From NCBI GenBank assembly GCA_001899305.1, contig MKWL01000001.1, positions 1 to 64,000 on the forward strand: a stretch of 64,000 bases of DNA, written 5' to 3'. The notes beneath the pieces are model-generated. The model was not told where the DNA came from and did no database searches. It was given only the letters and a program-made list of their open reading frames with translations. The position numbers and the translations under genes were made by a program. This stretch comes from Thiobacillus sp. 0-1251 (lineage in GTDB: Bacteria; Pseudomonadota; Gammaproteobacteria; Burkholderiales; Thiobacillaceae). Positions 50,780 to 63,680 of this stretch are shown one piece after another. The first letter of the stretch is position 1. Each line of letters opens with the position of its first letter.

Positions 50780-51664
50780 TCAAAGCAGCTCCCCCTTGAT
50801 GACGGGAATCACGCGTCCGCCCACACTTATTTCAGGAGCTCCATCGGACGTGCCGGCACGCAACTTCACCAGGGAAGGCCGGTTCATTTCGTATCCCTGT
50901 TCAATGCGCAGCGACAGGCTGGGTCCGGGGAGAATCGGATGTTCCAGAAGATAGGCGCCGAGGAAGGCGGCTCCGTTGCCCGTCGCCGGATCCTCGCGTA
51001 CGCCGTGGGCCTCGAAAAAGAACCTGACGCACAGGTCGTTGCAGGCGTGATGCGTCTCGCGGCAGAACAGGTACACGAGAGAAGGGAAGCCTTGCCTGGC
51101 CAATGGCGTGAAGGCGTCGAGATCCAGTTTGCAGCGGCGTAGCGCATCGAGGCTGCGCAGGGGCACGATCATGGCTGAAATGCCGGCAGTCATCTGCTGA
51201 ATGGGGGACGCTGTGTCGATATCGTCGGGCGATATGCCCAGCGCCGTCGCCATGGGTTTGCGGTCGCATGTCGCCCCAGGCGTCACCGGGGGTGCCTGAA
51301 ACCATGCAGTTTCGGGTTCGTCGGCAGTGAGTTCGAACGTGACGGGGACCTGGCCGACCGCAAGATTCAGCCGTACCGGCGCGGACGTGCCGGGCGCAAT
51401 CTGTTCCCGGATGACCCAGGCTGTCCCGAGGATCGGGTGCCCGGCAAAGGCGATTTCCCGCGCAGGCGTGAAGATCCTGACCCGGTGGCCGCCATCGCGC
51501 TCCGGGGCGGTGTAGACGAAGGTCGTTTCCGAGAAATTCATCTCGGTCGCGATCTGCTGCATCGTTTCGTCGGAGAGGTCGTCGGCGTGGGTGACCACCG
51601 CCAGTTGGTTACCGGCGTAGGGTCGTTCTGCAAAAACGTCAACGATGTGGAAAGGGTGCGTCAT
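50780..51664 (-). CDS. PhzF-family protein (isomerase-like)
   Basis: 294-aa protein of the diaminopimelate-epimerase-like PhzF/YddE family: VDVFAERPYAGNQLAVV at the start, MNFSETTFVY with the conserved catalytic Glu, TPAREIAFAGHPILGTA and the C-terminal REDPATGNGAAFLGAYL. Most members are uncharacterised, so no phenazine pathway is implied; no phz genes are near. The ATG chosen skips seven upstream codons and matches the family start. Single gene. Confidence 0.88.
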   Translation of the reverse strand: MTHPFHIVDVFAERPYAGNQLAVVTHADDLSDETMQQIATEMNFSETTFVYTAPERDGGHRVRIFTPAREIAFAGHPILGTAWVIREQIAPGTSAPVRLNLAVGQVPVTFELTADEPETAWFQAPPVTPGATCDRKPMATALGISPDDIDTASPIQQMTAGISAMIVPLRSLDALRRCKLDLDAFTPLARQGFPSLVYLFCRETHHACNDLCVRFFFEAHGVREDPATGNGAAFLGAYLLEHPILPGPSLSLRIEQGYEMNRPSLVKLRAGTSDGAPEISVGGRVIPVIKGELL

Positions 51665-51728
51665 GGCCGTGCTGCCCAGCAACAATCAACCAGGCAGTAT
51701 AAAAGCTTTTCCTGCGTGCGGCGTACCG

Positions 51729-52502
51729 TTAAAAGCGGATGGCCAAGCCGGTCAGCCATGCCGAATCTGCGGCAGGGTGGGTCAGACCTTTGCGGTATCC
51801 GAGGTCAATATCCAGATTCGGGGTGACGGAATAGACCAGCCCCAGCACCATCGACCCCACGTTGGGATGACCCGACCGTTCGGCACAGCTTTCCACGCTG
51901 GCGTCGCCTACCAGGCGCAGCGATTCGCCGAGCGCGTATTCCGCGGCAACCGAGGCGTGGTAAATATGGTTCCGTTCGTCCGTTCCGTCGTGGATGTTGC
52001 GCGTATAGCCGAGATGCACGTGAAAGGTCCAGGGCTCGCCTGCATAGGTCATCACGGCGAACAGGCTGGGCGTGACGTGCCCCGCACTCAACCCCTTGTC
52101 GTCGTTTCCGGTCGGCAAGCCCAGCCCGGGACGCAGGGCGAAGCTCAGCGCACCTTCGTCGTAGAAGCGCCACTTGGCAGCAATCTCCATGTCCGCAAAC
52201 CCCTGGACGGTGGCGTCCGTGGCAGCCAGCCGGTCGGTCTGGCGCTCATGCGGCAGGGAGGCGATCACGTCGAGGGTGTCCGTGAGGCCAATGGATAGAA
52301 CAGTATTGATGCGCTGATCGCGCGTGTTGGTGGAGTCGTCCTTCGTGTGGCTGAGATCGTGCGTCAATTCCAGCTGAACATGGCCGGCGCCCTGGGTGCC
52401 GGTATCCTCCGTAAGGAGCGGGTGCGCGCCCAGCGCTGTCACGGGCCATTGGCCACACATGAGCAATACGAAGATGCTCACGATTCTTGTTGTTGTCTTC
52501 AT
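51729..52502 (-). CDS. Outer-membrane beta-barrel protein, MetA-pathway-of-phenol-degradation type
   Basis: 257-aa exported protein: signal peptide 1-27 (RIVSIFVLLMCGQWPVTALGA), mature start HPLLTEDTGTQGAGHVQLE, then alternating amphipathic strands (LSFALRPGLGLPTGN, WTFHVHLGYTRNI, LDIDLGYRKGL) and a terminal Phe in LAIRF, as for outer-membrane insertion. The pattern resembles the Phenol_MetA_deg family, whose members are often simply annotated transporters; substrate unknown. Confidence 0.65.
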   Translation of the reverse strand: MKTTTRIVSIFVLLMCGQWPVTALGAHPLLTEDTGTQGAGHVQLELTHDLSHTKDDSTNTRDQRINTVLSIGLTDTLDVIASLPHERQTDRLAATDATVQGFADMEIAAKWRFYDEGALSFALRPGLGLPTGNDDKGLSAGHVTPSLFAVMTYAGEPWTFHVHLGYTRNIHDGTDERNHIYHASVAAEYALGESLRLVGDASVESCAERSGHPNVGSMVLGLVYSVTPNLDIDLGYRKGLTHPAADSAWLTGLAIRF

Positions 52503-52580: not shown

Positions 52581-53936
52581 TCAAGAATCGGCGTTGGCGG
52601 ACGCCGCGTTCATGTGCGGCTCAGGATGGCCGCGTAGTTGGGAATCTGCTTCCTGGAATGTTTTGTCCAGCAATTCGATCCAATGGCTGACCGGCACCGG
52701 CGACGCCAGGGCCAGATGGGTCAGGCAGCCGATATTGGCCGTTGCGATGGCTTCCGGGCGACTGACCAGCAGGGTTTCCAGCTTGCGCTCGCGCAACGAT
52801 TCCGAGAGCGTAGACTGCAGGAGAGAGTAGGCGCCTGCCGAACCACAGCACATGAAAGGATAGCGAACGGGAAGGAGCTTGAACCCGGCGCGCTTCAGCA
52901 GTTTTTCGACCACGCCGTTCAGTTTTTCGCCATGCTGCAGGCTGCAGGATGACTGGAAGACGATGCGCCGCGGCTTCGGAGGGGCGGGCAGGGCATGAAG
53001 CGGGTCGTCATTCCATTCCTCGGCGACGATTTCCGCGATGTCCCGGGTCAGTTCCGAGATGCGTGCCGCCTTGTCGCGGTATTGGGGATCGTCGTGCAGC
53101 AGCTGGCCGTATTCGCGAAAGTGCATGCCGCACCCACTGGCAGTGAGGACGAGGGCTTCGGCGCCAGCCTCGATGTGCGGCCACAAGGCGTCGATGTTCT
53201 TGCGCATGAAGGCACGCGCTTCATCCGTTTCGGCCATGTGATGGCTCAGGGCGCCGCAACAGCCATCGCTGGCCGGAATCAGCCGGATTCCGAAGCGATC
53301 CAGCACGCGGGCGGAGGCGGCATTGATGTCGGGCGCGAGGCCGGGCTGCACGCATCCCTGCCAGATCAGCATGCGCCGGCCATGCGGCCGGTCGGGCCAG
53401 ACGCCAGCCTGGCGCCGCTGCGGAATCCGCGCACGCAGGTCTTCCGGCAGGAAGCGTCGCAGGGCCTGTCCTGTGCGTAGCAAGGCCGTGAAGCGGTAAC
53501 GGTAGGGCACCACGGCACGCAACGCACGGCGTGCCAGTTTCTCCTTGAGCGGTCGAGGGGACTCCTTTTCGACCAGCTCCCGTCCGATATCGAGAAGACG
53601 TCCGTAGCGGACACCCTGCGGGCAACTGGTTTCGCAGGACCGGCAGCCAAGGCAGCGATCGAGATGAAGTTGCAGATTGGCGCTGAGCGTGCGGCCTTCA
53701 AGGGTACTGAGGGTATAGGCCGGCAGCTCAAGCGTGTCTGGGGTGGGTTCCTTGCCCTCCATGAACTGCTTGATGAGATAAATGCGCCCCCGCGGCCCGT
53801 CCCATTCGTCATCCAGCAGCCGGAAGGTCGGGCAGGTAAAGGTACATTGGCCGCATTGCACGCAGGAAAGCAGGAGCGATTCCGCTTCGCGTCCCAGTTC
53901 GGTATCGCGGTAGGGTTCGGCCAGCTCGATTTTCAT
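52581..53936 (-). CDS. glcF: Glycolate oxidase iron-sulfur subunit-like protein GlcF
   Basis: 451-aa Fe-S protein with two ferredoxin motifs CVQCGQCTFTCPTF (from C25) and CLGCRSCETSCPQG, followed by two CCG domains (GCCGALSHH; CCGSAGAYS with SSCSLQH). The pattern is GlcF, which passes electrons from glycolate oxidation to quinone. No GlcD or GlcE partner lies in the window. Its upstream region carries the same promoter/operator block found before scnB and cbiM, in the orientation that would transcribe this gene. With the class V aminotransferase at 1-2 kb it suggests glyoxylate metabolism, but another substrate is possible. Confidence 0.85.
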   Translation of the reverse strand: MKIELAEPYRDTELGREAESLLLSCVQCGQCTFTCPTFRLLDDEWDGPRGRIYLIKQFMEGKEPTPDTLELPAYTLSTLEGRTLSANLQLHLDRCLGCRSCETSCPQGVRYGRLLDIGRELVEKESPRPLKEKLARRALRAVVPYRYRFTALLRTGQALRRFLPEDLRARIPQRRQAGVWPDRPHGRRMLIWQGCVQPGLAPDINAASARVLDRFGIRLIPASDGCCGALSHHMAETDEARAFMRKNIDALWPHIEAGAEALVLTASGCGMHFREYGQLLHDDPQYRDKAARISELTRDIAEIVAEEWNDDPLHALPAPPKPRRIVFQSSCSLQHGEKLNGVVEKLLKRAGFKLLPVRYPFMCCGSAGAYSLLQSTLSESLRERKLETLLVSRPEAIATANIGCLTHLALASPVPVSHWIELLDKTFQEADSQLRGHPEPHMNAASANADS

Positions 53937-54116: not shown

Positions 54117-54172
54117 ACTATGAGCCAGGCAAAAATGCTTGTCCAAGACCTTATTCCGATTGTGCTAATAGG
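54117..54172 (-). promoter_or_regulatory. Shared promoter/operator block, copy A (glcF)
   Basis: Read on the minus strand: operator CTATT-N13-ATAAG (54172 to about 54150; core AGCACAATCGGAATAAG), then -35 TTGGAC (54146-54141), an 18-bp spacer, and -10 CATAGT (54122-54117). The -10 lies 181 bp from the glcF start, giving a leader of about 170 nt. This is the only clear signal in the 302-bp gap between glcF and the LysR gene. Confidence 0.7.
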
Positions 54173-54238
54173 AACGGATTATGCTGTGCCGGCACGTCGT
54201 CCGGAAACGCAATTTCCCCGCTGGCGCGCCTGAAACGG

Positions 54239-55228
54239 CTACTCGTTCGAAGTGGATTCTTCGAGCAGGGAATCGAAATCGGCACCGAACTCCGCGAGCG
54301 CGCTTTTGTTGGCACCGGGACGGTTATGGCACCAGAGTGTTGCCAGCACGCCAAATGCCGTACAGGCCGGGCTCTTGTAACCCGACTTGCGGCAGATCAG
54401 GGTAATCGTGTGGTGCGGCATGTCGGGTTGCAGCATCACCGGATGGAGTCCCTGCTGCGAACAGATGATGCTGTGGGGAAGGATGGTGGCAAGCCGGCCG
54501 AGGCGGGCGACTTCGACAATGACGCTGAGCGAATTGGTTTCCATCGCGATACGCGGTGTGATGCCATGTTCCAGGCAATACAGGTCGATGTGGCGTCGCA
54601 GCGCAAAATCGGTGTTGAGCAATACCAGCGACTCGTTTTCCAGTACCTGGGGACTCAACGACTCGGTCTGGCCGGCGCGAGGGTGCGCCTTGCCTACGGC
54701 CAGGTTCAGCGTTTCAGTGAACAGGACATGGGTGTCGATCTCGTTCGAGCGGGCGACGGTCGAAAGCACGTTGGAGAAAGCGATACCAATATCGATATTA
54801 CCCTCTGCCACGTCGGCCTCGACGGCGTCCTGGGGCAGTTCGCGCGTACTGACGGTGATTCCGGGGTAGCGGGTATTGAAGGATTCCAGCAGGGGGCTGA
54901 CCAGGTGGTCGGTGATGGGCGTCATTCCCAGGCGCAGCGAACCGCGGCTCAGGTCCTGCAGCTCATGGATGGCCCGTTTTCCTTCGTCCAGTTCCCGCAA
55001 GGCGCGGCGGGCATAGTGCAGATAAACCTCCCCGGCGGCGGTCAGTTGCACCGTCCGTCCGGACCGGTCCAGCAACTGCACGTCGAGCAAATCTTCCAGA
55101 TGTTTGATCTGCTGCGACAGCGTGGGCTGCGAAACGAACAGCAGTTCCGCGGCGCGCGTGAAGCTTTGCATATCCGCCACCGCGATCAGGTAGCGAATGG
55201 AGCGAGGGAAGATGAGATTGCGTTGCAT
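54239..55228 (-). CDS. LysR-type transcriptional regulator (CynR-like)
   Basis: 329-aa regulator. N-terminal winged helix-turn-helix 8-66 (FTRAAELLFVSQPTLSQQIKHLEDLLDVQLLDR); effector domain about 95-300 (GSLRLGMTPITDHLVSPLLESF, IDIGIAFS, LAVGKAHPRAGQ). It is closest in feel to CynR/CysB-like regulators of cyanate and sulfur genes. It diverges from the cbiM-cynS transcript; copy B of the shared operator begins 8 bp from its start, so autoregulation is likely. It is the prime candidate for binding all three copies. ATG chosen over a TTG two codons upstream. Confidence 0.9.
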   Translation of the reverse strand: MQRNLIFPRSIRYLIAVADMQSFTRAAELLFVSQPTLSQQIKHLEDLLDVQLLDRSGRTVQLTAAGEVYLHYARRALRELDEGKRAIHELQDLSRGSLRLGMTPITDHLVSPLLESFNTRYPGITVSTRELPQDAVEADVAEGNIDIGIAFSNVLSTVARSNEIDTHVLFTETLNLAVGKAHPRAGQTESLSPQVLENESLVLLNTDFALRRHIDLYCLEHGITPRIAMETNSLSVIVEVARLGRLATILPHSIICSQQGLHPVMLQPDMPHHTITLICRKSGYKSPACTAFGVLATLWCHNRPGANKSALAEFGADFDSLLEESTSNE

Positions 55229-55235
55229 AGCCAAA

Positions 55236-55292
55236 CCTTATAGCACTAATCGGAATAAAGACTTGGAAAACTATAGCCAGTTAGTCCATTGT
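55236..55292 (+). promoter_or_regulatory. Shared promoter/operator block, copy B (cbiM-cynS / LysR gene)
   Basis: Operator CTTAT-N13-ATAAAG (55237-55260, core AGCACTAATCGGAATAA), then -35 TTGGAA (55263-55268), 18-bp spacer, -10 CATTGT (55287-55292). It would start a transcript near 55299 with a leader of about 310 nt before cbiM. It also sits at the divergent LysR promoter. The remaining 55293-55609 holds no gene; no riboswitch was recognised. Confidence 0.7.
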
Positions 55293-55609
55293 TGTGAACA
55301 TACGATTTGTATCGATGTTTCTGAAGACAGAGCAGCAGATCGACATACGCTTTTCATTATGACTGAACCTGCCTGGACAGGGGGTGACCGGTAGTGAATC
55401 GGCATATTCGAGAATGTTTATGGACCATCGAGCACGTGTCGTAGTTTGACGTTGATCGGCATGCAGGGTTCTACCACATGAGTGTGCGGCACAGGCTGGC
55501 GCGCGTGGAAGTGGGGCGGCTGGCGGTCATTCTGTCTGGGTTACTGGTCGTTACCTGGCGGGAGCTAGGTAACAAGATTCGTTAGAGAGTGCACAAAGGA
55601 GGAAACACC

Positions 55610-56305
55610 ATGCATATTGAACCAGGTATTGTTGAAGGCGCCAAAATGACACTGAGTTACGCTACGGCGATCGGGGTGTTTGGCTATACGGCGAAGCTGG
55701 CATTGAATTCGATCAAACAGGACGGGATCATCCCCCTGGGAATTCGCAGCCTGATCGCGGCAGCCCTCGTATTCAGCTTCTTCGAGGTGTTTCCGCACTA
55801 TCCGATCGGTGTTTCCGAGGTCCACCTGATCCTGGGCTCGACGCTCTTCCTCATGTTCGGCGCGGCGCCGGCGGCCATAGGCCTGGCGCTCGGACTGTTG
55901 ACGCAGGGCCTCTTCTTTGCGCCGTGGGATCTGCCGCAATACGGCATGAACATGACGACGCTGCTGGTGCCCCTGTTCGCGCTCAGCGCCATTGCGCATC
56001 GCTATATTCCTGAGAAAACGGCTTACAAGGATGTGAAATACAGCCAGTGCCTGGCGCTGTCGACCGCCTACCAAGGTGGCGTGGTGGCCTGGGTTGCCTT
56101 CTGGGCGATCTATGGTCAGGGCGTGGGTGCCGCGAATCTGGCGCAAATCGGGACGTTCGGTGTTGCCTACATGTCGATTGTCCTCATCGAGCCGCTGCTG
56201 GACCTGGCCATTCTCGCTGCCGTGAAGAGTTTGCATCAGCTTCAGGACAGCACGGTGTTCCAACAGCGTTTCTATCGGGTAGCGGCGGCCCGCGTGGGAA
56301 GCTGA
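55610..56305 (+). CDS. CbiM-like cobalt/nickel energy-coupling-factor permease
   Basis: 231-aa membrane protein with about six helices, starting MHIEPGIVEGAKM: the N-terminal M-H pair corresponds to the metal-binding N-terminus of CbiM/NikM. Later segments (LGIRSLIAAALVFSFFEVFPH, LILGSTLFLMFGAAPAAIGLALGLLTQGLFFAP) fit the family. No CbiQ or CbiO partner is present. Excellent ribosome site AAAGGAGG. In context it probably imports cobalt for the Co-dependent thiocyanate hydrolase encoded 2.8 kb downstream; that role is inference. Confidence 0.75.
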   Translation: MHIEPGIVEGAKMTLSYATAIGVFGYTAKLALNSIKQDGIIPLGIRSLIAAALVFSFFEVFPHYPIGVSEVHLILGSTLFLMFGAAPAAIGLALGLLTQGLFFAPWDLPQYGMNMTTLLVPLFALSAIAHRYIPEKTAYKDVKYSQCLALSTAYQGGVVAWVAFWAIYGQGVGAANLAQIGTFGVAYMSIVLIEPLLDLAILAAVKSLHQLQDSTVFQQRFYRVAAARVGS

Positions 56306-56441
56306 ACAACGCAACGGGGAGGGCTTCCGGGCAGTTGATGTCCTCCCCGCACGGATCGTTTACGCATTACCCGCACCCATTTGACCAGAGACACAGTTGC
56401 CGGGCGGCCCGTACGCCAGGTCAACGCAAGGAGCAGTACGG

Positions 56442-56882
56442 ATGAATAAAACAGAAATGAAAGAAGCGATCCTCCAGGCCAAGTCCGGGAAAGGCTTGAC
56501 GTGGGGCGACATCGCCAAGTCGGCGGGCTTGTCCGATGAGTTTGTCTGCTCGGCATGCCTGGGCATGAACCACTTGGAAAAACCGCAGGCCGATGCGGTG
56601 GCCGAGACGCTTGGTCTTGGCGGTGAGGTTTCGGCCGCGTTGCAGCGCTTCCCGACCAAGACATGGGATCGCCCCATTCCGACGGACCCGCTGATTTACC
56701 GCTGGTACGAGATGCTGAACGTGTATGGCGAGACGATCAAGGAGATGATCAATGAGAAATTCGGCGACGGCATCATGAGCGCCATCGACTTCACCATGAA
56801 CATCGATAGACAGGAAGACCCGAAAGGCGATCGCGTACTGGTCACGATCAGCGGCAAGTTCCTGCCCTATAAATCCTGGTGA
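56442..56882 (+). CDS. cynS: Cyanate hydratase (cyanase)
   Basis: 146-aa cytosolic decameric enzyme: cyanate + bicarbonate gives ammonia + 2 CO2. Catalytic triad R87, E90 and S113 fall in LIYRWYEMLN and GIMSAIDFTM, equivalent to E. coli R96, E99, S122 with a constant shift of nine. N-terminal helical DNA-binding-like domain as in the family. It lies 136 bp after the CbiM-like gene and is followed by a terminator at 57042. It removes cyanate formed alongside thiocyanate use and yields ammonia. Confidence 0.97.
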   Translation: MNKTEMKEAILQAKSGKGLTWGDIAKSAGLSDEFVCSACLGMNHLEKPQADAVAETLGLGGEVSAALQRFPTKTWDRPIPTDPLIYRWYEMLNVYGETIKEMINEKFGDGIMSAIDFTMNIDRQEDPKGDRVLVTISGKFLPYKSW

Positions 56883-57041
56883 GCGCGTCATGGCTACGCC
56901 TCCGAGAGGGCGTTACGGGAGTGAGGTCCCGTTTGCCGTGAAGCTGCCTGAACTGATCATGGGAACAAGCATTCATTGAACATAAGTGTTAGGGCTCCTC
57001 AATCCGGTATCTACTCCTCCTGTGCCGGATGTCCTAGGGTT

Positions 57042-57070
57042 GCCGCCTCCTCGCGAGGCGGCTTTTTTTT
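57042..57070 (+). terminator. Rho-independent terminator after cynS
   Basis: GCCGCCTC and GAGGCGGC arms with a CTCGC loop, followed by eight T. It ends the cbiM-cynS transcript 160 bp after cynS; the 329-bp gap to the methyltransferase otherwise shows nothing clear. Confidence 0.93.
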
Positions 57071-57211
57071 ATGAATATGCCGCAGGCCATGGTGCTGTGC
57101 GGCGACCTGGGCTTCAGCATCGATCCGCCACTCCGGTTGTCGGGAGGACACCTGCTTTTCGGATTCGGTTGTGCTGGACGATCGGGCTTCGTTTTAAAGA
57201 TGAGGTGAAGC

Positions 57212-58033
57212 ATGGCTGCGCGTGACCCCCACCGTTTCGTCAATGAACTTGATGAGGCCGCACTCGAACGTCTCGTCGCCCGACTTGAAAGCAGGGCACG
57301 CGATGGTGTCTTTGCACGCCTGCTCGACAACTATGTGGCTCGACTTGCCTTGCCCCCGTCCGCCCAGGTCCTGGAGGTGGGCTGCGGCACGGGTGCCGTG
57401 CTGCGGTCGATCGCGCGCCGAGGCGATTTTGCCGGCAAGGCGCTGGGGGTCGATCAATGCGGCCATTTCATCGATGCCGCAAACGGTTTCGCACGAAGCG
57501 AACATGTCGATGGGCAGATCGTTTTCCGGGTCGGCGATGCGCACCGCCTCGCGTTCCCCGATGCGACATTCGATGTCGTCATCGCGCACACGCTGATCAG
57601 CCATGTGACTGCACCGCTCGCGGTTTTGGGCGAGATGGCGCGTGTTGTCCGCCCCGGCGGAACCGTGGTTGTTTTCGATGGCGATTACGCCTCCCTGACC
57701 TATGCTTACCCTGACCACGACTTCGGCCGCCTTGTCGACGAAGCCCTGGCGAATGCCACGTTCAACAATCCGCGGATCATGCGCGATCTGCCGAGACTCC
57801 TGCCCGAGCTCGGCTTGAAGCTGGCAGACGCCTGGGGCGATGCCGTGGTCGAAATCGGTCAGGCAAGCTATTTCAAGTCGTTTGCCGAGACCTATGTGCC
57901 CTATGTCAAACAGGCAGGATTGCTGCCGGAACGCGCGATGGAGGTCTGGCACAACGAGCAGCGTCAGGCGATGGAGAACGGAACATTCTTTGCCGCGTGC
58001 AATTACTACACCTACATGGCGCACCGTATCTGA
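57212..58033 (+). CDS. Class I SAM-dependent methyltransferase
   Basis: 273-aa soluble enzyme. SAM motif I is VLEVGCGTGAVLRSIA (about 51-66), acidic motif LGVDQCGHFIDAA, motif FDVVIAHTLISHV and post-motif RVVRPGGTVVVFDGDY. The C-terminal part is helical with KSFAETYVPYVKQAGLL and a Tyr-rich end. Small-molecule methyltransferase (for example thiol, cyanide-related or quinone type) is plausible; substrate not determined. It lies between cynS and scnB behind its own ribosome site (GATGAGGTGA) with a terminator upstream, so it may have a separate promoter. Confidence 0.8.
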   Translation: MAARDPHRFVNELDEAALERLVARLESRARDGVFARLLDNYVARLALPPSAQVLEVGCGTGAVLRSIARRGDFAGKALGVDQCGHFIDAANGFARSEHVDGQIVFRVGDAHRLAFPDATFDVVIAHTLISHVTAPLAVLGEMARVVRPGGTVVVFDGDYASLTYAYPDHDFGRLVDEALANATFNNPRIMRDLPRLLPELGLKLADAWGDAVVEIGQASYFKSFAETYVPYVKQAGLLPERAMEVWHNEQRQAMENGTFFAACNYYTYMAHRI

Positions 58034-58197
58034 TCCCCTTGTAAGTCAGCGTGGAACGATCCGGATGGAGATGTGAAAGATACCTATTGGATATTGTTTG
58101 GAGAGGGGTCTTTGAACGGCACTGTGACAAACGGGTTTCGATGTGTTCGGAAATGCTGGAATCCAGTCTGCAAGCGGGTCTTGGGCCTATAGCAAAA

Positions 58198-58254
58198 CCC
58201 TATGGGGATCATCGGAATTAAGACTTGGAAACCAATAGTTAGATGACGCATAGT
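58198..58254 (+). promoter_or_regulatory. Shared promoter/operator block, copy C (scn operon)
   Basis: ATCGGAATTAAGACTTGG (58211-58228) is 17/18 identical to copy B. Left half-site CCCTAT is looser. -35 TTGGAA (58225-58230), 18-bp spacer, -10 CATAGT (58249-58254); leader about 170 nt to scnB. The -10 to start distance is 180 bp, almost the same as in copy A (181). Confidence 0.72.
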
Positions 58255-58433: not shown

Positions 58434-58865
58434 ATGTCATCGTCTCACAGAGAAGTGGTTCTCCGGCATATCGAGACTGTCGGTTACATGCAGCCGGCTC
58501 TGCACCGCCAGACGCACGCGCCTGCCCCCGATCTAATCACCCCTGACCTCTGGAAGGCTTACACCCGTATTGTGCACGACGTCGGCGGCGAGCCGGATGT
58601 GCCTATGGCGTGGGAAGAAAAGCAAGAGGAACAGTGGGAGTTGAATACCTTTGCGACTGCCGAATGTCTTGCTTGGCGCGGAGCGTGGACGGCGGAAGAG
58701 CGGCGTCGTAAACAGAATGCGGACGTTGGTCAGACGCAGTACCTGGGTCTGCCTTACTACGGTCGATGGTTGCTGACGTGTGCGCGGATCCTGGTCGACA
58801 AGCAGTTCTGTACGCTCACCGAACTGGTCAACAAAATTGAGGAGGTAAAAAATCGCCATGTCTAA
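58434..58865 (+). CDS. scnB: Thiocyanate hydrolase beta subunit
   Basis: 143-aa subunit corresponding to the N-terminal half of nitrile hydratase beta (EETVGYMQPALHR-like front, WELNTFATAECLAWRGAWTAEERRR). Thiocyanate hydrolase turns SCN- and water into carbonyl sulfide and ammonia. Order scnB-scnA-scnC equals that of Thiobacillus thioparus. Start after AAAGGAG; a start 10 codons upstream lacks a good site. It overlaps scnA by eight bases. Confidence 0.93.
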   Translation: MSSSHREVVLRHIETVGYMQPALHRQTHAPAPDLITPDLWKAYTRIVHDVGGEPDVPMAWEEKQEEQWELNTFATAECLAWRGAWTAEERRRKQNADVGQTQYLGLPYYGRWLLTCARILVDKQFCTLTELVNKIEEVKNRHV

Positions 58866-59226
58866 ACCCCATTACGACAGAGAGCATCACGCCAAAATTG
58901 CCTCCGGCATTGGCGATCCCCAGTGCTTTCGCGGCAAGGCCGGTGAGGCCAAATTCAAGGAAGGCGAGCGCGTGCGGATCCGGGATCTACCGGACATTTT
59001 CTACACGCGCACGATGCTCTATACGCGCGGTGCGGTCGGTACCGTGACCAAGCTGGTCTATGAGAGCCCGGCTGCGGAAGATGAAGCCTTCGGCAACGAG
59101 GATCATCCCGAGTGGTTCTACAGCGTGGTTTTCATGCAGAAGGACCTTTGGCCCGAGTATAGCGATACGTATGCAAACGACACATTGGAGACCGAGTTTC
59201 CAGAGCGTTATCTTGAGCGGGCGTAA
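58858..59226 (+). CDS. scnA: Thiocyanate hydrolase alpha subunit
   Basis: 122-aa subunit corresponding to the C-terminal half of nitrile hydratase beta (FKEGERVRIRDLPDIFYTRTMLYTRGAVGTV, EWFYSVVFMQKDLWPEYSD). It binds the beta and gamma subunits in the heterododecamer. Ribosome site GAGGT inside the end of scnB; overlap indicates coupled translation and equal stoichiometry. Confidence 0.93.
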   Translation: MSKPHYDREHHAKIASGIGDPQCFRGKAGEAKFKEGERVRIRDLPDIFYTRTMLYTRGAVGTVTKLVYESPAAEDEAFGNEDHPEWFYSVVFMQKDLWPEYSDTYANDTLETEFPERYLERA

Positions 59227-59260: not shown

Positions 59261-59986
59261 ATGTCAGATCATCATGACCATGACCACGACCACGGCCATA
59301 AGCCGGCACCGATGGTCGATGAAGTCAGTCATTTCGAAATTCTCGAAATGGCAGTCCGCGAACTCGCAATTGAAAAAGGACTGTTTACTGCCGAGGATCA
59401 CCGGACTTGGGTGGAATATGTCCACACGCTCGGCCCAACCCCGGCGGCGCGTCTGGTTGCCAAGGCTTGGTTGGATCCTGAATACAAGAAGCTGTGCGAA
59501 GCCGATGGCGTCGAGGCCAGTAAGGCCGTGGGTGTCAACTGGGTGACCAGCCCGCCCACCCAGTTCGGCACGCCGAGCGACTACTGTAACTTGCGTGTCC
59601 TCGTGGACACCCCGACGGTCAAGCATGTCGTGGTGTGTTCACTGTGTTCGTGCTATCCCCGCCCGATTCTCGGTCAGTCGCCCGAATGGTATCGGACCCC
59701 TAACTATCGTCGTCGTCTGGTTCGTTGGCCGCGCCAGGTGCTTACTGAGTTTGGCTTGCAGTTGCCTTCGGAAGTGACGATCCGGGTTGCCGACTCCAAC
59801 CAGAAGACCCGTTACATCGTGATGCCGGTGCGGCCCGAGGGCACGGAAGGCTGGACCGAGGATCAGCTGACCGAGATCGTGACGCGCGATTGTCTGATCG
59901 GCGTGGCTGTGCCCAAGCCTGGAATTACGACAAACGTCAAGCTCCCAGTGCGCAAGGCGATCCATCCAGTCCATCACGACCATTGA
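59261..59986 (+). CDS. scnC: Thiocyanate hydrolase gamma (catalytic, Co-binding) subunit
   Basis: 241-aa subunit homologous to nitrile hydratase alpha. The cobalt claw is C126-S-L-C129-S-C131 (VVCSLCSCYPRP), where the second and third Cys are expected to be oxidised to sulfinic and sulfenic acid. The N-terminus (residues 4-13) is His/Asp-rich, HHDHDHDHGH, a likely metal-binding tail. Ribosome site AAGAGGA. P15K follows after 27 bp. Confidence 0.96.
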   Translation: MSDHHDHDHDHGHKPAPMVDEVSHFEILEMAVRELAIEKGLFTAEDHRTWVEYVHTLGPTPAARLVAKAWLDPEYKKLCEADGVEASKAVGVNWVTSPPTQFGTPSDYCNLRVLVDTPTVKHVVVCSLCSCYPRPILGQSPEWYRTPNYRRRLVRWPRQVLTEFGLQLPSEVTIRVADSNQKTRYIVMPVRPEGTEGWTEDQLTEIVTRDCLIGVAVPKPGITTNVKLPVRKAIHPVHHDH

Positions 59987-60013: not shown

Positions 60014-60436
60014 ATGAGTGCTTCGAGCAATGACGCAAACGCTGAAAACGGCGAGATGCTGATTGATGCAACGCCTATCCCCTTGCTTCGGAGCATTCAG
60101 GCTCATGGCAGGGTGTGGGAAGACTTGGCTGCGCAATACGGGGTAACCAACCCGGATCCGCCCTGGAAAATCACGCTGGAAGCCACGTGCGACCTTCTCG
60201 CGGGTGACTCCTGTGTCAAGCCCTACGACCAGGTCGAGCCCGGCTCCTGCGCCTTGCCCTCACTCGAGCGACGCGCGGAGGAGGATGAGTTGTCTGCAAC
60301 GCTTTACGAGGATGTGCCGTTTCCTGAGCGGCAGCTTCTTGCGCTGGCGCATTCCATGATCGCGCGTGGCTTGCTGGATGAGGCTGAGCTGGCCAGTCGG
60401 ATGGAAGTAGTAGGGCAGCGCTTCAACAGTGCTTGA
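60014..60436 (+). CDS. P15K, thiocyanate hydrolase cobalt activator protein
   Basis: 140-aa protein of about 15 kDa that fits P15K, the chaperone encoded after scnC in T. thioparus and needed for Co incorporation. Visible are LRSIQAHGRVWEDLAAQYGV and LTDEAEL-like helices; two nearby cysteines at CDLLAGDSC (C69, C77) could carry metal. Ribosome site AAGGAGAG. Confidence 0.83.
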   Translation: MSASSNDANAENGEMLIDATPIPLLRSIQAHGRVWEDLAAQYGVTNPDPPWKITLEATCDLLAGDSCVKPYDQVEPGSCALPSLERRAEEDELSATLYEDVPFPERQLLALAHSMIARGLLDEAELASRMEVVGQRFNSA

Positions 60437-60554: not shown

Positions 60555-61346
60555 ATGGCAATACGTGGAACAGAAATCAAGATCCAGGGCCTGACCCACC
60601 GTTACAGTTCGCGGACCGGGGTGACCTTCAATCGGGTTGATCTGGTGTCGCCGCCCGGTGAGGCGCTGGCAATTATCGGCCGTTCGGGTTGTGGCAAATC
60701 CACGCTGCTCCATATTCTGGCCGGCATTCTGAAACCTACCGAAGGCAAGGTCCTGCTCAATGGGACGGCGATTACTGCACCGTCGCCCCGCTGGGTCATG
60801 ATGTTCCAGGCGCCGCACCTGTTTCCCTGGATGACGGTTTCCCAGAACGTCGGCGTCGGCTTGAGCTTCGGGCGCTGGTCCAAGGAAGAAACCGAAGAGC
60901 GCGTGACGGAGGCGATCAAGCTGGTCGAGCTGCAGGATTTCGCCATGGCCAATGTGCAAGATCTCTCGGGTGGCCAGCAACAGCGTGTGGCATTGGCCCG
61001 CTCGCTGGTGATGGAGCCGGAACTCCTGCTGCTGGACGAACCGTTCTCCGCGCTTGACGCGTTCACGCGTTCATCCCTGCAAAAGGATGTGCGCAACATC
61101 GCCAAGCGCAAGGGCTTCAACATCGTCTTCGTGACGCACGATATCGACGAGGCCGTGATCATGGGCGACCGTGCCGTGATCATGGCAGGCTCGCCCGGAA
61201 ACATCGTTCACGAACTGGATATCGACCTTCCCGATCCGCGCGATCGCCACGACGCGGCGGTTCAGGCTTTGCGTACTCGCCTGATGGCGACGTTCCAGGA
61301 AGCGGCGAACTACAAGAAACCGGAGTCGGCCACGCTGGCTGCATGA
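60555..61346 (+). CDS. ABC transporter ATP-binding protein (nitrate/taurine/cyanate type)
   Basis: 263-aa ATPase. Walker A GRSGCGKSTLL, Q-loop MMFQAPHLFPWM, signature LSGGQQQR, Walker B LLLLDEPFSALD and switch His VTHDIDEAV. It resembles SsuB/TauB/NrtD. It pairs with the downstream substrate-binding protein and two permeases. In this setting thiocyanate is the natural candidate, cyanate the alternative; specificity is set by the binding protein and cannot be read here. Confidence 0.9.
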   Translation: MAIRGTEIKIQGLTHRYSSRTGVTFNRVDLVSPPGEALAIIGRSGCGKSTLLHILAGILKPTEGKVLLNGTAITAPSPRWVMMFQAPHLFPWMTVSQNVGVGLSFGRWSKEETEERVTEAIKLVELQDFAMANVQDLSGGQQQRVALARSLVMEPELLLLDEPFSALDAFTRSSLQKDVRNIAKRKGFNIVFVTHDIDEAVIMGDRAVIMAGSPGNIVHELDIDLPDPRDRHDAAVQALRTRLMATFQEAANYKKPESATLAA

Positions 61347-61434
61347 TCTGCGACTTACCCGAATTGCTCAAAGTGAAGAGGCAGGATGAGCAAACACCGG
61401 TCGGGATACCGACCCTCACCTTAGGAGACCGAGA

Positions 61435-62862
61435 ATGAAGAAATATCTATACGAAGAGCATAGCCAGCCGCGTCCGCTGGTGCACGTTGATGGATGTTCA
61501 TGCGGTACATGTGGCAAGGCCCGTCCGATCGACCCACGCATGCAGATGATGATGCCCGACAATCCGGACATCGGCGACGGCATGGAAGATCCGAATCTCG
61601 ACCTAGCCTATGACCCGCTGTTCAGCTCCGTCCTCGGCACGGGCGTCAGCCGGCGCGACATGCTCAAGATGGCCGGTCTCTCCGCACTGGGCGGCATGGC
61701 CGGGATGGGCGGCATGCTGTCCTCGTCGGCCTTCGCTGCCGACAAGAAGAAATTCTCCAAGCCGTTCGACCCCGTGGTCAAGATCGGCTACATCCCGATT
61801 ACCGATGCGGCCGCGCTCCTGGTCGCGCACGAAATGGGCTTCTTCAAGAAGCAGGGTATCGAGTCGGAGCCGCCGACACTGATTCGCGGCTGGTCGCCGC
61901 TGGTCGAGGCCTTCTCGTCCCAGCGTTTCAACCTCACGCACATGCTCATTCCGGTGCCGATCTGGATGCGTTACAACAACAAGTTCCCGGTGAAGATCAC
62001 GGCCTGGAACCACACCAACGGCTCCGGCATCATCGTCCACAAGAGCAGTGGCATTTCCTCGCCCAAGGACTTCGGCGGCAAGCAGTTCGCCGTGCCGTAC
62101 TGGTACTCGATCCACAACATCATCTCGCAGAAAATCCTGCGGGAAGCCGGCATTACGCCCGTGGTCCGGCCGCAAAACGCGAAGCTCGCACCCAACGAGT
62201 GCAACTTCCTCGTGCTGAACCCGCCCGACATGCCGCCGGCCCTGGCAGCGAGACAGATCGACGGCTATTGCGTCGCCGAACCGTTCAATGCGCTCGGGGA
62301 GCTCAAGGCGGGTGGCCAGATGCTGCGCTTCACCGGCGACGTCTGGAAAGGCCATCCTTGCTGCGTAGTCATCATGCACGAAGACGATGCCATGGATCCC
62401 GCCCGCGCGGCCTGGGCGCAGGGCGTCCATAACGCCATCGTCGAGGCGCAGATCTATCTGTCCAACAACAAGAAGGCGATGGCGCAGATGCTGTCCAAGG
62501 ATGGCAAGAAATACCTGCCGTTCCCCTCCGAGGTCGTCGAGCGCGCGATGCTGTTCTACAGCCCGGCCGATTATGCGACGCCACCCGCCATCAAGCATCC
62601 GGAGTGGGGCCAGAGCCGCATCAATTTCCAGGGCTGGCCGTACCCGAGTGCCACCAAGTACGTTACCGAAGAGCTCAAGAAAACACTGGTCGGCGGCGAC
62701 CTGGGTTTCCTGAACAACCTCACCGCCGATTTCGTGGCCAAGGATCTCGTCAACTACACCTATGTCAAGAAGGCGCTCAATGCCAACCCGACATGGAAGG
62801 CGGATCCGAGCGTGCCGCAAAAAGGCGATCCCTTTGTGCGTACCGAGGTGATTGAACTATGA
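61435..62862 (+). CDS. Tat-type substrate-binding protein of the ABC transporter
   Basis: 475-aa NrtA/SsuA-like binding protein. It starts with a 70-residue polar lead containing C21-S-C23-G-T-C26, then a Tat signal (S72-R73-R74-D-M-L, hydrophobic GLSALGGMAGMGG, ending AFA). The mature part shows IGYIPITDAAALLVAHEMGFFKKQGIE and QIDGYCVAEPFNALGELKAGG, typical of oxyanion or pseudohalide binders. Ribosome site AGGAGA. Having the RR pair at residue 73 is unusual. It overlaps the next gene by four bases. Confidence 0.87.
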   Translation: MKKYLYEEHSQPRPLVHVDGCSCGTCGKARPIDPRMQMMMPDNPDIGDGMEDPNLDLAYDPLFSSVLGTGVSRRDMLKMAGLSALGGMAGMGGMLSSSAFAADKKKFSKPFDPVVKIGYIPITDAAALLVAHEMGFFKKQGIESEPPTLIRGWSPLVEAFSSQRFNLTHMLIPVPIWMRYNNKFPVKITAWNHTNGSGIIVHKSSGISSPKDFGGKQFAVPYWYSIHNIISQKILREAGITPVVRPQNAKLAPNECNFLVLNPPDMPPALAARQIDGYCVAEPFNALGELKAGGQMLRFTGDVWKGHPCCVVIMHEDDAMDPARAAWAQGVHNAIVEAQIYLSNNKKAMAQMLSKDGKKYLPFPSEVVERAMLFYSPADYATPPAIKHPEWGQSRINFQGWPYPSATKYVTEELKKTLVGGDLGFLNNLTADFVAKDLVNYTYVKKALNANPTWKADPSVPQKGDPFVRTEVIEL

Positions 62863-63680
62863 ATTATGCAGTCACATCCGCCGGGGAGGGCGGCTTTTGC
62901 CGCCTGATGAAGCATCGGGCGGTGCAGAGTCTTGGCTGGGCTGCGGGCGGTATCGCGATCCTGGCCATCCTCTGGTTGATCGGAGGGTACTTTATCGCCA
63001 ATAACCCGACGACGAAGACCTTCGTCAAGTTCGGATTGCTTCCTACGCTCGAGGCGTTCCCCGAGTTGTGGGGGGCGGGCAAGATCCAGAATGCGCTGGC
63101 TGCCAGCGGCTTCCGCTTGGGCTCCGGCCTGCTGATGGCCATCGTCATCGGTGTGCCGATCGGCATCCTCATGGGACGCATCAAGTGGTTCCGCGACTTC
63201 ACCAACTCGCCGTTCCAGTTCGTGCGGATGATCAGTCCGCTCTCCTGGATGCCGCTTGCGGTGCTGGTGTTCGCGACCTGGAACGGGTCGATCATCTTCC
63301 TGATCGCGATCGCGGCGGTCTGGCCGGTGATGTTTGCAACTGCAGCCGGACTGGCCAAGGTTGACCCGAACTGGTTCAAGGTGGCGCGCAATCTTGGCGC
63401 CACACCCATGCACATCCTGACCAAGGTGATCATGCCGGCGATCACGTTCGACGTGTTGTCCGGCATCCGCCTCGCGCTGGGGGTTGCGTGGATCGTGCTC
63501 GTCCCGGCCGAATATCTCGGCGTGACGTCCGGCCTGGGCTATGCCATCGAGGATGCACGCGAGACGCTTTCGTACAACCACCTCACTGCGATGGTGGTCA
63601 CGATCGGTATCGTCGGTTATTTCCTCGACAGCATCCTGGTGGCGCTCATCAAACGCTACAGCTGGCATCGGGGGGGCTGA
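62859..63680 (+). CDS. ABC transporter permease (first)
   Basis: 273-aa permease of the BPD_transp_1 family with about six helices and the EAA-type loop LGATPMHILTKVIMPAITFDVLSGIRLALGVAW. Start overlaps the binding-protein stop (ATGA). A second permease begins 134 bp later, so the transporter may be a heterodimer. N-terminal residues 1-20 are an extra polar stretch. Confidence 0.88.
   Translation: MNYAVTSAGEGGFCRLMKHRAVQSLGWAAGGIAILAILWLIGGYFIANNPTTKTFVKFGLLPTLEAFPELWGAGKIQNALAASGFRLGSGLLMAIVIGVPIGILMGRIKWFRDFTNSPFQFVRMISPLSWMPLAVLVFATWNGSIIFLIAIAAVWPVMFATAAGLAKVDPNWFKVARNLGATPMHILTKVIMPAITFDVLSGIRLALGVAWIVLVPAEYLGVTSGLGYAIEDARETLSYNHLTAMVVTIGIVGYFLDSILVALIKRYSWHRGG

Follow-up and report, generated by a model that had tools for sequence, protein, structure and literature searches.

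Boxes recognised by LysR-type regulators follow a T-N11-A rule. In E. coli, the CynR boxes lie at -66 and -44 (PMC5002191). For Thiobacillus thioparus, the ABC transporter of the thiocyanate hydrolase (scn) cluster has been described as being of the NitT/TauT type (PMC5328954). An open literature search returned no paper describing a regulator dedicated to a Thiobacillus-type thiocyanate hydrolase operon; the nearest report concerns Mycobacterium smegmatis genes that are annotated as thiocyanate hydrolase and induced by nitrogen limitation (PMC4617892).

The window analysed here is a 64,000-nucleotide stretch of Thiobacillus sp. 0-1251, in which three similar blocks, A, B and C, had been noticed. 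We estimate at about 90% the probability that they are operator-promoters of CynR type, bound by the LysR protein encoded at 54239-55228 and activating the scn, cobalt/cynS and GlcF-like genes. The features are the following:

50780..51685, minus strand: PhzF-family protein.
51729..52502, minus strand: PF13557 protein, the next gene after GlcF2; an outer-membrane barrel by reading only.
52581..53936, minus strand: GlcF-like Fe-S/CCG protein, a second paralogue, here named GlcF2; predicted target of site A.
54117..54195, minus strand: site A, putative operator/promoter (CynR-type) facing the glcF-like gene; box 1 ATAATCCGTTCCTAT 54182-54168, core 54160-54143, -35 TTGGAC 54146-54141, -10 CATAGT 54122-54117.
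54239..55228, minus strand: CynR-type LysR regulator (scn-linked subfamily); the frame opens with TTG at 55234 and the ATG at 55228 is the likely start.
55214..55292, plus strand: site B, putative operator/promoter between cynR and cbiM-cynS; box 1 ATAGCCAAACCTTAT 55227-55241, core 55249-55266, -35 TTGGAA 55263-55268, -10 CATTGT 55287-55292.
55610..56305, plus strand: CbiM-family cobalt-uptake membrane protein, first gene after site B (PF01891, 64.6 bits, cutoff 23.1; under the NCBIfam CbiM cutoffs).
56442..56882, plus strand: CynS cyanase (TIGR00673 and NF002773 above cutoff).
57212..58033, plus strand: class I methyltransferase, retained in the cluster among relatives.
58176..58254, plus strand: site C, putative operator/promoter facing scnBAC; box 1 ATAGCAAAACCCTAT 58189-58203, core 58211-58228, -35 TTGGAA 58225-58230, -10 CATAGT 58249-58254.
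58434..58865, plus strand: ScnB, nitrile hydratase beta N-terminal half (PF21006).
58858..59226, plus strand: ScnA, nitrile hydratase beta C-terminal half (PF02211).
59261..59986, plus strand: ScnC, thiocyanate hydrolase gamma subunit (TIGR03887, 385.9 bits, cutoff 291.45).
60014..60436, plus strand: hypothetical protein 3' of scnC, kept in relatives; no NCBIfam or Pfam match at 0.001.
60555..63680, plus strand: ABC transporter, with ATPase 60555-61346 (no family above its own cutoff among the NCBIfam matches listed), NMT1-like binding protein 61435-62862 and permease 62859-63680 (assigned by reading).

The names ScnB and ScnA follow what we take to be the order of the subunit genes. The three blocks were found at the positions and on the strands of the original prediction, each with TTGGA(A/C) followed 18 bp later by CATAGT (A and C) or CATTGT (B), and the start first given for block B (55236) does lie 8 bp away from 55228, where the LysR gene has its likely ATG. 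The core had been typed one base too long: with up to 3 mismatches allowed, that version needed all 3 to recover B and C, and it missed A. The corrected core, ATCGGAATWARGWCTTGG, matches A, B and C exactly. It has exactly 3 copies in the 3.66-Mb genome, all at this locus, and only 3 other places come within 3 mismatches, all of them at 3, versus 10 places for a reversed control pattern. A genome-wide scan with a site model gave 4 matches, including A (8.8e-14), B (6.2e-17) and C (2.7e-17). Scanning the genome thus returned 3 exact cores and 4 model matches, not the hundreds that would have indicated a dispersed repeat. Blocks A, B and C are genuine and specific. The fourth match has no sensible target; an XRE-type gene lies 0.5 kb downstream of it, a TPR/glycosyltransferase gene is divergent and a phage capsid gene is found about 8 kb away.

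A CTTAT-N13-ATAAG dyad, which had been placed directly upstream of the -35, is complete in none of the window copies, the arms at that position being CTTAT/ATAAA (B), CCTAT/ATTAA (C) and CCTAT/ATAAG (A). Fully complementary arms occur there in 0/37 sites, which rules out this dyad as the recognition element. The conserved dyad, ATAG-N7-CTAT, lies farther upstream and begins 22 bp before the core; its arms are fully complementary in 26 of the 37 sites. The order is ATAG-N7-CTAT, N7 and then the core, so that each block extends beyond the length given earlier. A LysR-activated promoter should present an inverted T-N11-A box near -65 and a second box that extends to the -35; the sites have both, with positions counted from the start that the -10 box predicts. 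In site B, box 1 shares 2 bp with the likely cynR ATG and an additional CTATAG is present at 55271-55276. With at most 1 mismatch, CTATAG follows the core in 7/12 B, 0/7 A and 2/12 C sites, a pattern that fits a putative third, autoregulatory box at B. Since the upstream box of B overlaps the cynR start and ribosome-binding region, its conservation is confounded; A and C are free of this.

The LysR protein exceeds the cutoff of the CynR equivalog family (NCBIfam NF008416, 370.1 bits, cutoff 277), matches PDB 2hxr/3hfu (E. coli CynR) at 3.8e-46 and is 44% identical to E. coli CynR. With cynR on the minus strand from 55228, cbiM-cynS on the plus strand and site B between them, the locus has the divergent layout of the cyanate operon. 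It is not an operon of the cynTSX type, in which the carbonic anhydrase gene cynT and the transporter gene cynX adjoin cynS, because CbiM, CynS and the methyltransferase lie between cynR and scnB. In all 18 scn-linked CynR rows the TPTFT loop is shorter by one residue and there is an insertion of 5-6 residues, changes that are absent in the 6 cyanate-only CynRs compared; the window CynR thus does not have an effector domain like theirs. This difference suggests that the scn-linked subfamily senses thiocyanate. The gene facing site A had been taken for the glycolate-oxidase gene glcF and proved to be a second, divergent GlcF-like paralogue. A housekeeping glycolate oxidase is ruled out for it by the stronger GlcF (666 bits vs 461) at G000:C15:216733-217953, near which an FAD-oxidase_C (GlcD-type) gene is located. 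The gene between these two was recognised as GlcE by eye only.

A CynR at 64% identity or more is encoded in 14/56 genus genomes, and one more genome has a CynR at 51%. Site model matches (E<=0.001, with stricter filters and at most 84 candidates scored per genome) were obtained in 14/14 genomes with a close CynR, at 2 to 5 per genome, and in 0/42 others, the 51% one included; these genomes are kin to one another, so that the phyletic counts are not independent. ScnC scored above cutoff in 13 genus genomes, all within the same 14, and in the fourteenth (G344) a contig end holds a partial ScnC, while a different contig carries a site followed by scnB/scnA-like genes. Cyanase per se was rejected as the linked trait: cynS is above cutoff in 31/56 genomes, 17 of which have neither a close CynR nor model matches. 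These counts give comparative support to the proposed regulon of thiocyanate hydrolase, cyanase, cobalt supply and a glcF-like gene.

Alignment of the same regions in other scn genomes, as suggested at the outset, showed sites kept before scnB in most; they also mostly remain before the cobalt-transporter/cynS unit and the glcF-like gene. The copies retain their place and orientation ahead of the same genes while the flanks lose similarity, pairwise identity in A and C being 0.31-0.35 in the flanks vs 0.88-0.89 in the core (7, 12 and 12 chosen sites for A, B and C). The upstream flank of B (0.75) is cynR coding sequence and is excluded from the flank figure; in one B row (L099, with a TonB receptor gene) the alignment is shifted by one base past the core. 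Exceptions were found. G310 has GlcF2 and no site at E<=0.5, G050 has no separate site before scnB, and in G265, where scnC is above cutoff, the genome gave no model match and the 18 kb examined contained no CynR. Among the 7 loci above the ScnC cutoff (L032-L038), L035 (G050) and L038 (G265) have no core match within 3.6 kb; the 23 nitrile-hydratase loci below it (L039-L061) gave a single core-like match, at 3 mismatches. Wider phylum sampling found scnC in this genome only out of 398, gammaproteobacterial scn clusters being outside the sample.

When the E. coli cyn locus was searched with a model that contained no E. coli sequence, the top match (E=0.00077, unfiltered, in 6 kb) fell in the gap between cynR and cynT; it was gapless, and its orientation was the same. 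The 37-site matrix scored 15.8 at this gap, with the next best at -3.5 in 106 kb (0/20000 shuffles). This matrix omits L090, L097 and L101 (genomes near-identical to that of the window) and four L102/L103 sites (6-bp spacer or 3 mismatches), and contains one hand-added site with 4 mismatches (L022). Of four other cynR-cynT gaps, those of Paraburkholderia and Caballeronia scored 14.1 and 16.1, in each case the top rank within about 5.9 kb, and those of Enterobacter and Agrobacterium only -9.2 and -11.0. The stretches shown for E. coli, Paraburkholderia and Caballeronia contain no annotated scn genes. The motif, believed to be undescribed, therefore matches the E. coli CynR operator region, described in PMC5002191 and work cited there. 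The assignment to a LysR-type promoter class is upheld by the comparative evidence; its being new in kind is not.

In the proposed mechanism, a dimer of the LysR protein would bind the upstream box ATAG-N7-CTAT, centred at about -65 from the expected start, and a second dimer would bind 22 bp downstream, on the box that holds the core and overlaps the -35 TTGGA(A/C). Upon binding of the inducer, thiocyanate and/or cyanate, the tetramer would recruit RNA polymerase to TTGGAN-18-CATAGT. Site C would then switch on scnBAC and its transporter, site B the cobalt transporter and cynS, and site A the GlcF-like gene. At B, the same binding would cover the cynR start, and cynR should be repressed.

A different factor, whether a LysR paralogue or some special sigma factor, might bind the sites, the CynR gene being merely a neighbour. 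CynR binding is deduced here from sequence, and the fourth match (G000:C11:189866-189934) stands beside an XRE-type gene with a LysR protein in 0/7 ORFs scanned there. However, the model matches follow the close CynR across the genus (14/14 and 0/42), the gap that separates cynR from the gene divergent to it holds a site, and this site matches the corresponding cynR-cynT gaps in E. coli, Paraburkholderia and Caballeronia, where the stretches shown carry no annotated scn; we consider this explanation quite improbable. The occurrence of three similar blocks inside 4.2 kb could also reflect a dispersed or recently duplicated repeat devoid of regulatory role. Dispersal is ruled out by the 3 exact copies and 4 model matches in 3.66 Mb, and the restriction to 2 to 5 matches per positive genome, with none in the 42 others, together with the retention of place and orientation beside diverged flanks, makes such a repeat extremely improbable.

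The nature of the inducer is a separate matter, compatible with a CynR operator. Cyanate could be the sole inducer, scn being induced only via cyanate accompanying thiocyanate: E. coli CynR responds to cyanate (PMC5002191) and cynS belongs to the regulon. On the other hand, thiocyanate hydrolase produces COS and ammonia, not cyanate (PMC6504805), the effector-domain changes common to the scn-linked CynRs are absent in the 6 cyanate-only ones, and E. coli cynT was induced by thiocyanate treatment, although the authors could not exclude cyanate contamination (PMC12096828). Cyanate as sole inducer is possible, and we hold it to be rather doubtful.

As for the CynR operator itself, joint activation of thiocyanate hydrolase, cyanase, a cobalt importer and a little-understood iron-sulfur protein by one CynR-related regulator is probable. 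The novelty would be the extension of the CynR regulon from cyanate to thiocyanate hydrolase and cobalt uptake. More tentatively, at slightly under even odds, the scn-linked CynRs may form a distinct subfamily whose anion pocket shifted from cyanate to thiocyanate, with scn, cobalt importers and GlcF2 drawn under an old cyanate operator, and GlcF2 may be an unrecognised part of COS-pathway thiocyanate catabolism. The cobalt importers are interchangeable in that reading (CbiM or HupE/UreJ). The scn operon hereby gains a specific candidate regulator with sites located to the base, which would explain why a cyanase and a cobalt importer stand beside scn although the enzyme makes COS. It also raises the possibility that a LysR regulator changed its effector and retained its operator, and it draws attention to GlcF2 as a candidate, so far unstudied component of thiocyanate use, of relevance to cyanide-mining and coking wastewater.

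The scn clusters of Thiobacillus thioparus DSM 505 and Thioalkalivibrio thiocyanodenitrificans likewise have a cobalt transporter, cyanase and methylase upstream of scn and a NitT/TauT transporter downstream; the part of PMC5328954 devoted to them deals with gene context and differing cobalt uptake systems and names no regulator, operator or GlcF2. The locus analysed here is also present in T. thioparus DSM 505 (L017). With the OxyR/IlvY/CynR promoter group, as outlined in PMC5002191, the sites share a 15-bp box, a second box 22 bp downstream beside the -35 and a third box in the divergent gap, whereas the second box is here conserved as sequence (the core) and not as a good dyad. The box spacing equals that of the E. 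coli CynR boxes given in the same source. E. coli K-12 cynR-cynTSX further resembles the locus in equivalog family, divergent layout, gapless operator match and cyanase as target. It has one divergent region, whereas Thiobacillus has several sites; the interval from cynR to scnB here lacks counterparts of cynT and cynX, the effector domain is altered relative to the E. coli type, and the predicted targets reach beyond cynTSX to scnBAC, cobalt transporters and GlcF2.

The three near-identical promoter blocks of the original prediction are present where it had placed them. The window features concerned are listed here.

52581-53936, minus strand: GlcF2, a second, divergent GlcF-like Fe-S type
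54117-54195, minus strand: block A, facing GlcF2
54239-55228, minus strand: cynR, a LysR gene
55214-55292, plus strand: block B, between cynR and cbiM-cynS
57212-58033: class I methyltransferase gene
58176-58254, plus strand: block C, facing scnBAC (thiocyanate hydrolase)

From 5' to 3', each block consists of ATA(G/A)-N7-(C/T)TAT (box 1), seven bases, the core ATCGGAAT(A/T)A(A/G)G(A/T)CTTGGA(A/C) and then CATAGT or CATTGT, which stands 18 bp 3' of TTGGAN in all three. The core as first written carried one letter too many: searched at up to 3 mismatches, it recovered B and C at 3 mismatches only and missed A. The corrected core has three exact matches in the 3,658,319-base genome, all within blocks A-C, and three further places match at 3 mismatches each, compared with ten for a reversed control pattern. 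No window copy and 0/37 sites contain the full dyad originally proposed next to the -35; upstream of it, the arms of ATAG-N7-CTAT are fully complementary in 26/37. At A and C sites, pairwise identity was 88-89% in the core, 76-79% in the upstream box and 31-35% in the flanks.

The LysR product exceeds the NCBIfam CynR equivalog cutoff (370 vs 277 bits), and at E<=1e-20 it matches a single distinct PDB sequence, the effector domain of E. coli CynR (2hxr, 3hfu; 3.8e-46). The window ScnC (thiocyanate hydrolase subunit) likewise exceeds its own family cutoff. Thiobacillus thioparus DSM 505 (L017) has a CynR 98% identical to the one in the window; the genes around scn in T. thioparus are described in PMC5328954. 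A contig labelled as a Rhizobium MAG (L015) carries a Thiobacillus-like cluster with a 98% identical CynR and is probably mis-binned.

The distribution of the site was analyzed with R1, a sequence-only model of 79 positions built from 39 sites, none of them from E. coli. Among 56 genus genomes, which are related so that presence/absence counts are not independent events, CynR at >=64% identity was found in 14 (one further genome, G309, at 51%), ScnC above cutoff in 13 and the core at <=1 mismatch in 13. A genus-wide R1 scan, with stricter filters and a ceiling of 84 scored candidates for each genome, gave matches at E<=0.001 in 14/56, exactly those with close CynR and none of the other 42. All 13 ScnC genomes fall within this set; in the fourteenth (G344), ScnC is partial, lying at the end of a contig, and a nitrile-hydratase-beta-type scnB and scnA stand behind a site on a separate contig. 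The core pattern agreed in 12/13 ScnC genomes, G351 having instead two copies at 2 mismatches. Comparison of the same regions in other scn genomes, proposed as a check of the prediction, placed a site before scnB in 13/13 genus genomes with ScnC. Cyanase exceeded its cutoff in 31/56 genomes, 17 of them lacking both close CynR and R1 matches; the site therefore follows CynR rather than cyanase. Among 300 genomes of the order, seven have ScnC above cutoff, five of them outside the genus (G231, G033, G050, G078, G265). R1 matched in the first four; in G265 it found nothing genome-wide, and no CynR was present in the 18 kb searched.

Across relatives, sites keep their direction ahead of the same genes. 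Two loci of another family (L102, L103) show the order cynR, site, scnB. In L022, scnB itself stands divergent to cynR and its site is weaker (R1 2.1e-8); in G050, scn comes after the divergent site and no separate site was found ahead of scnB.

Gene following the cynR-side site, tallied in 19 genomes.
CbiM: 10/19
HupE/UreJ protein: 5/19 (L096, L100, L104, L105, L107)
cynS, directly: 2/19 (L102, L103)
TonB receptor (Pfam): 1/19 (L099; site at 4563-4641)
scnB: 1/19 (L022)

HupE/UreJ and CbiM, which we take to be unrelated nickel/cobalt importers, replace each other in one slot, and this fits cobalt supply to a cobalt enzyme. In L099, CbiM has a separate site of its own. A second TonB-dependent receptor gene (Pfam) lies behind a site in L144 (9002-9069); the sites before these two receptors possibly reflect metal or metallophore uptake.

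Several other genes accompany these loci. Weak sites in G078 and G033 (L102 5943, L103 5565, L145 5943-6011, L146 6107-6175) precede a formate/nitrite-type channel (L102, Pfam) and a multicopper-oxidase gene (L145, Pfam), the latter followed, by reading, by a second scnBA-like pair. Between the methyltransferase and scn, G311 (L092 9267-10630) also carries one more scnBA-like pair (45-54% identity), which has its own site, making four in all; the sites show this locus and L018 (Thiobacillus sp. 63-78) to be one and the same. The methyltransferase is kept in 16/20 scn loci compared (absent from L022, L102, L103 and L106), even in L104, where cynS does not adjoin. A second cyanase gene of the window's genome (G000:C5:68692-69132, L109) stands beside ABC-transporter-like genes.

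GlcF was searched in 14 genomes, nine with the CynR/scn system and five genus genomes without close CynR. A first type at 585-672 bits and a second at 416-474 bits, to which the window's gene belongs, occur together in 9/9 of the former (G000, G353, G310, G327, G321, G351, G231, G050, G078; in G078 with a third below cutoff) and a single one in 5/5 of the latter (G301, G306, G325, G303, G309). The first-type GlcF of G000 is at C15:216733-217953, near a FAD-oxidase_C gene. GlcF2 has a site ahead of it both in the window and in relatives, including cases in which the gene stands apart from cynR: 1.4-1.5 kb apart in L094, L096 and L100 and, in G231 (R1 6.5e-5), some 9 kb away from scnC. The site scores weakly in G050 (0.0075) and G078 (0.0018); in G310, whose GlcF2 lies on a different contig, a search at E<=0.5 gave none. 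GlcF2 is therefore most likely a member of the predicted CynR regulon and not a glycolate oxidase subunit.

A fourth site-like match in the genome (G000:C11:189866-189934, minus strand; L140 9867-9935; R1 5.4e-9) lies 0.5 kb ahead of an XRE-type gene, with a TPR/glycosyltransferase-41 gene divergent and a phage capsid gene some 8 kb away. Similar matches occur in G300, G311, G328 and G353, and an XRE-type gene stands behind this type of site in three loci (L140, L141, L143).

The effector domain was compared in 26 LysR rows, including 18 scn-linked proteins, several of them close relatives, and six cyanate-only CynRs (E. coli, Paraburkholderia, Enterobacter, Agrobacterium, Caballeronia and G309 of the same genus). 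The loop equivalent to TPTFT is expected to contact the effector in LysR proteins. At the place of TPTFT in the six cyanate-only CynRs, 18/18 scn-linked proteins have (T/N)P-I(T/S), as well as a 5-6 residue insertion further along; FATR (6/6 cyanate-only) becomes ALRR in 16/18. In a tree of 25 rows, a branch with support 94/98, below the tool's star threshold, parts the 18 from the rest. According to PMC12096828, hypothiocyanite induces E. coli cynTSX 10- to 50-fold and thiocyanate itself induces cynT, with cyanate contamination possible. At slightly better than even odds, thiocyanate is the more likely, putative inducer here.

Accessible portions of the open-access literature on thiocyanate hydrolase, CynR, cyanase or scn regulation, or cobalt transport, yielded no report of such a regulon, nor did those of PMC5328954, PMC6382920, PMC6504805, PMC5458468, PMC6172326, PMC5744179 and PMC6627978. 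A sigma-54 two-component system was proposed for a different enzyme, thiocyanate dehydrogenase (PMC6504805, PMC5328954, PMC5744179), and in nitrogen-limited M. smegmatis genes annotated as thiocyanate hydrolase subunits rose about 3.4- to 3.7-fold, together with cyanate hydratase (PMC4617892). We judge the predicted CynR regulon to be real, its presumed mechanism ordinary and its membership newly widened.

Two CynR dimers would bind each block, one on box 1 and one on the core box, and activation would act at the -35 that the core box overlaps. Box 1 of B overlaps the likely cynR ATG, and cynR would be autorepressed there. An extra CTATAG (<=1 mismatch) occurs 3' of the core in 7/12 B, 0/7 A and 2/12 C sites. 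Beyond the sequence pattern, we infer this mechanism from the CynR model.

The motif, of which the original prediction knew no description, matches the E. coli cynR-cynT operator region. Run unfiltered over a 6-kb E. coli K-12 stretch, R1 placed its top match in the cynR-cynT gap, gapless and in the right orientation (E=0.00077; second match E=0.42); with default filters and E. coli searched together with other loci, this match was absent at E<=1. A 37-site matrix scored 15.8 in the gap and at most -3.5 elsewhere (106 kb, both strands), and 0/20,000 letter shuffles of the gap equalled it. The Paraburkholderia and Caballeronia plasmid gaps scored 14.1 and 16.1, ranking first in their respective 5.9-kb loci; those of Enterobacter (-9.2, rank 1) and Agrobacterium (-11.0, rank 2) scored weakly. 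According to PMC5002191, which draws on both its own analysis and cited work, E. coli CynR protects a 60-bp cynR-cynT region with boxes ATAA-n7-TTAT centred at -66, -44 and -34. If transcription starts about 7 bp 3' of the -10 box, the Thiobacillus boxes fall at about -65 and -43, a spacing equal to that of the E. coli boxes reported at -66 and -44. Because of this equal spacing and the match of model and matrix to cynR-cynT gaps, blocks A-C are read as predicted CynR operators.
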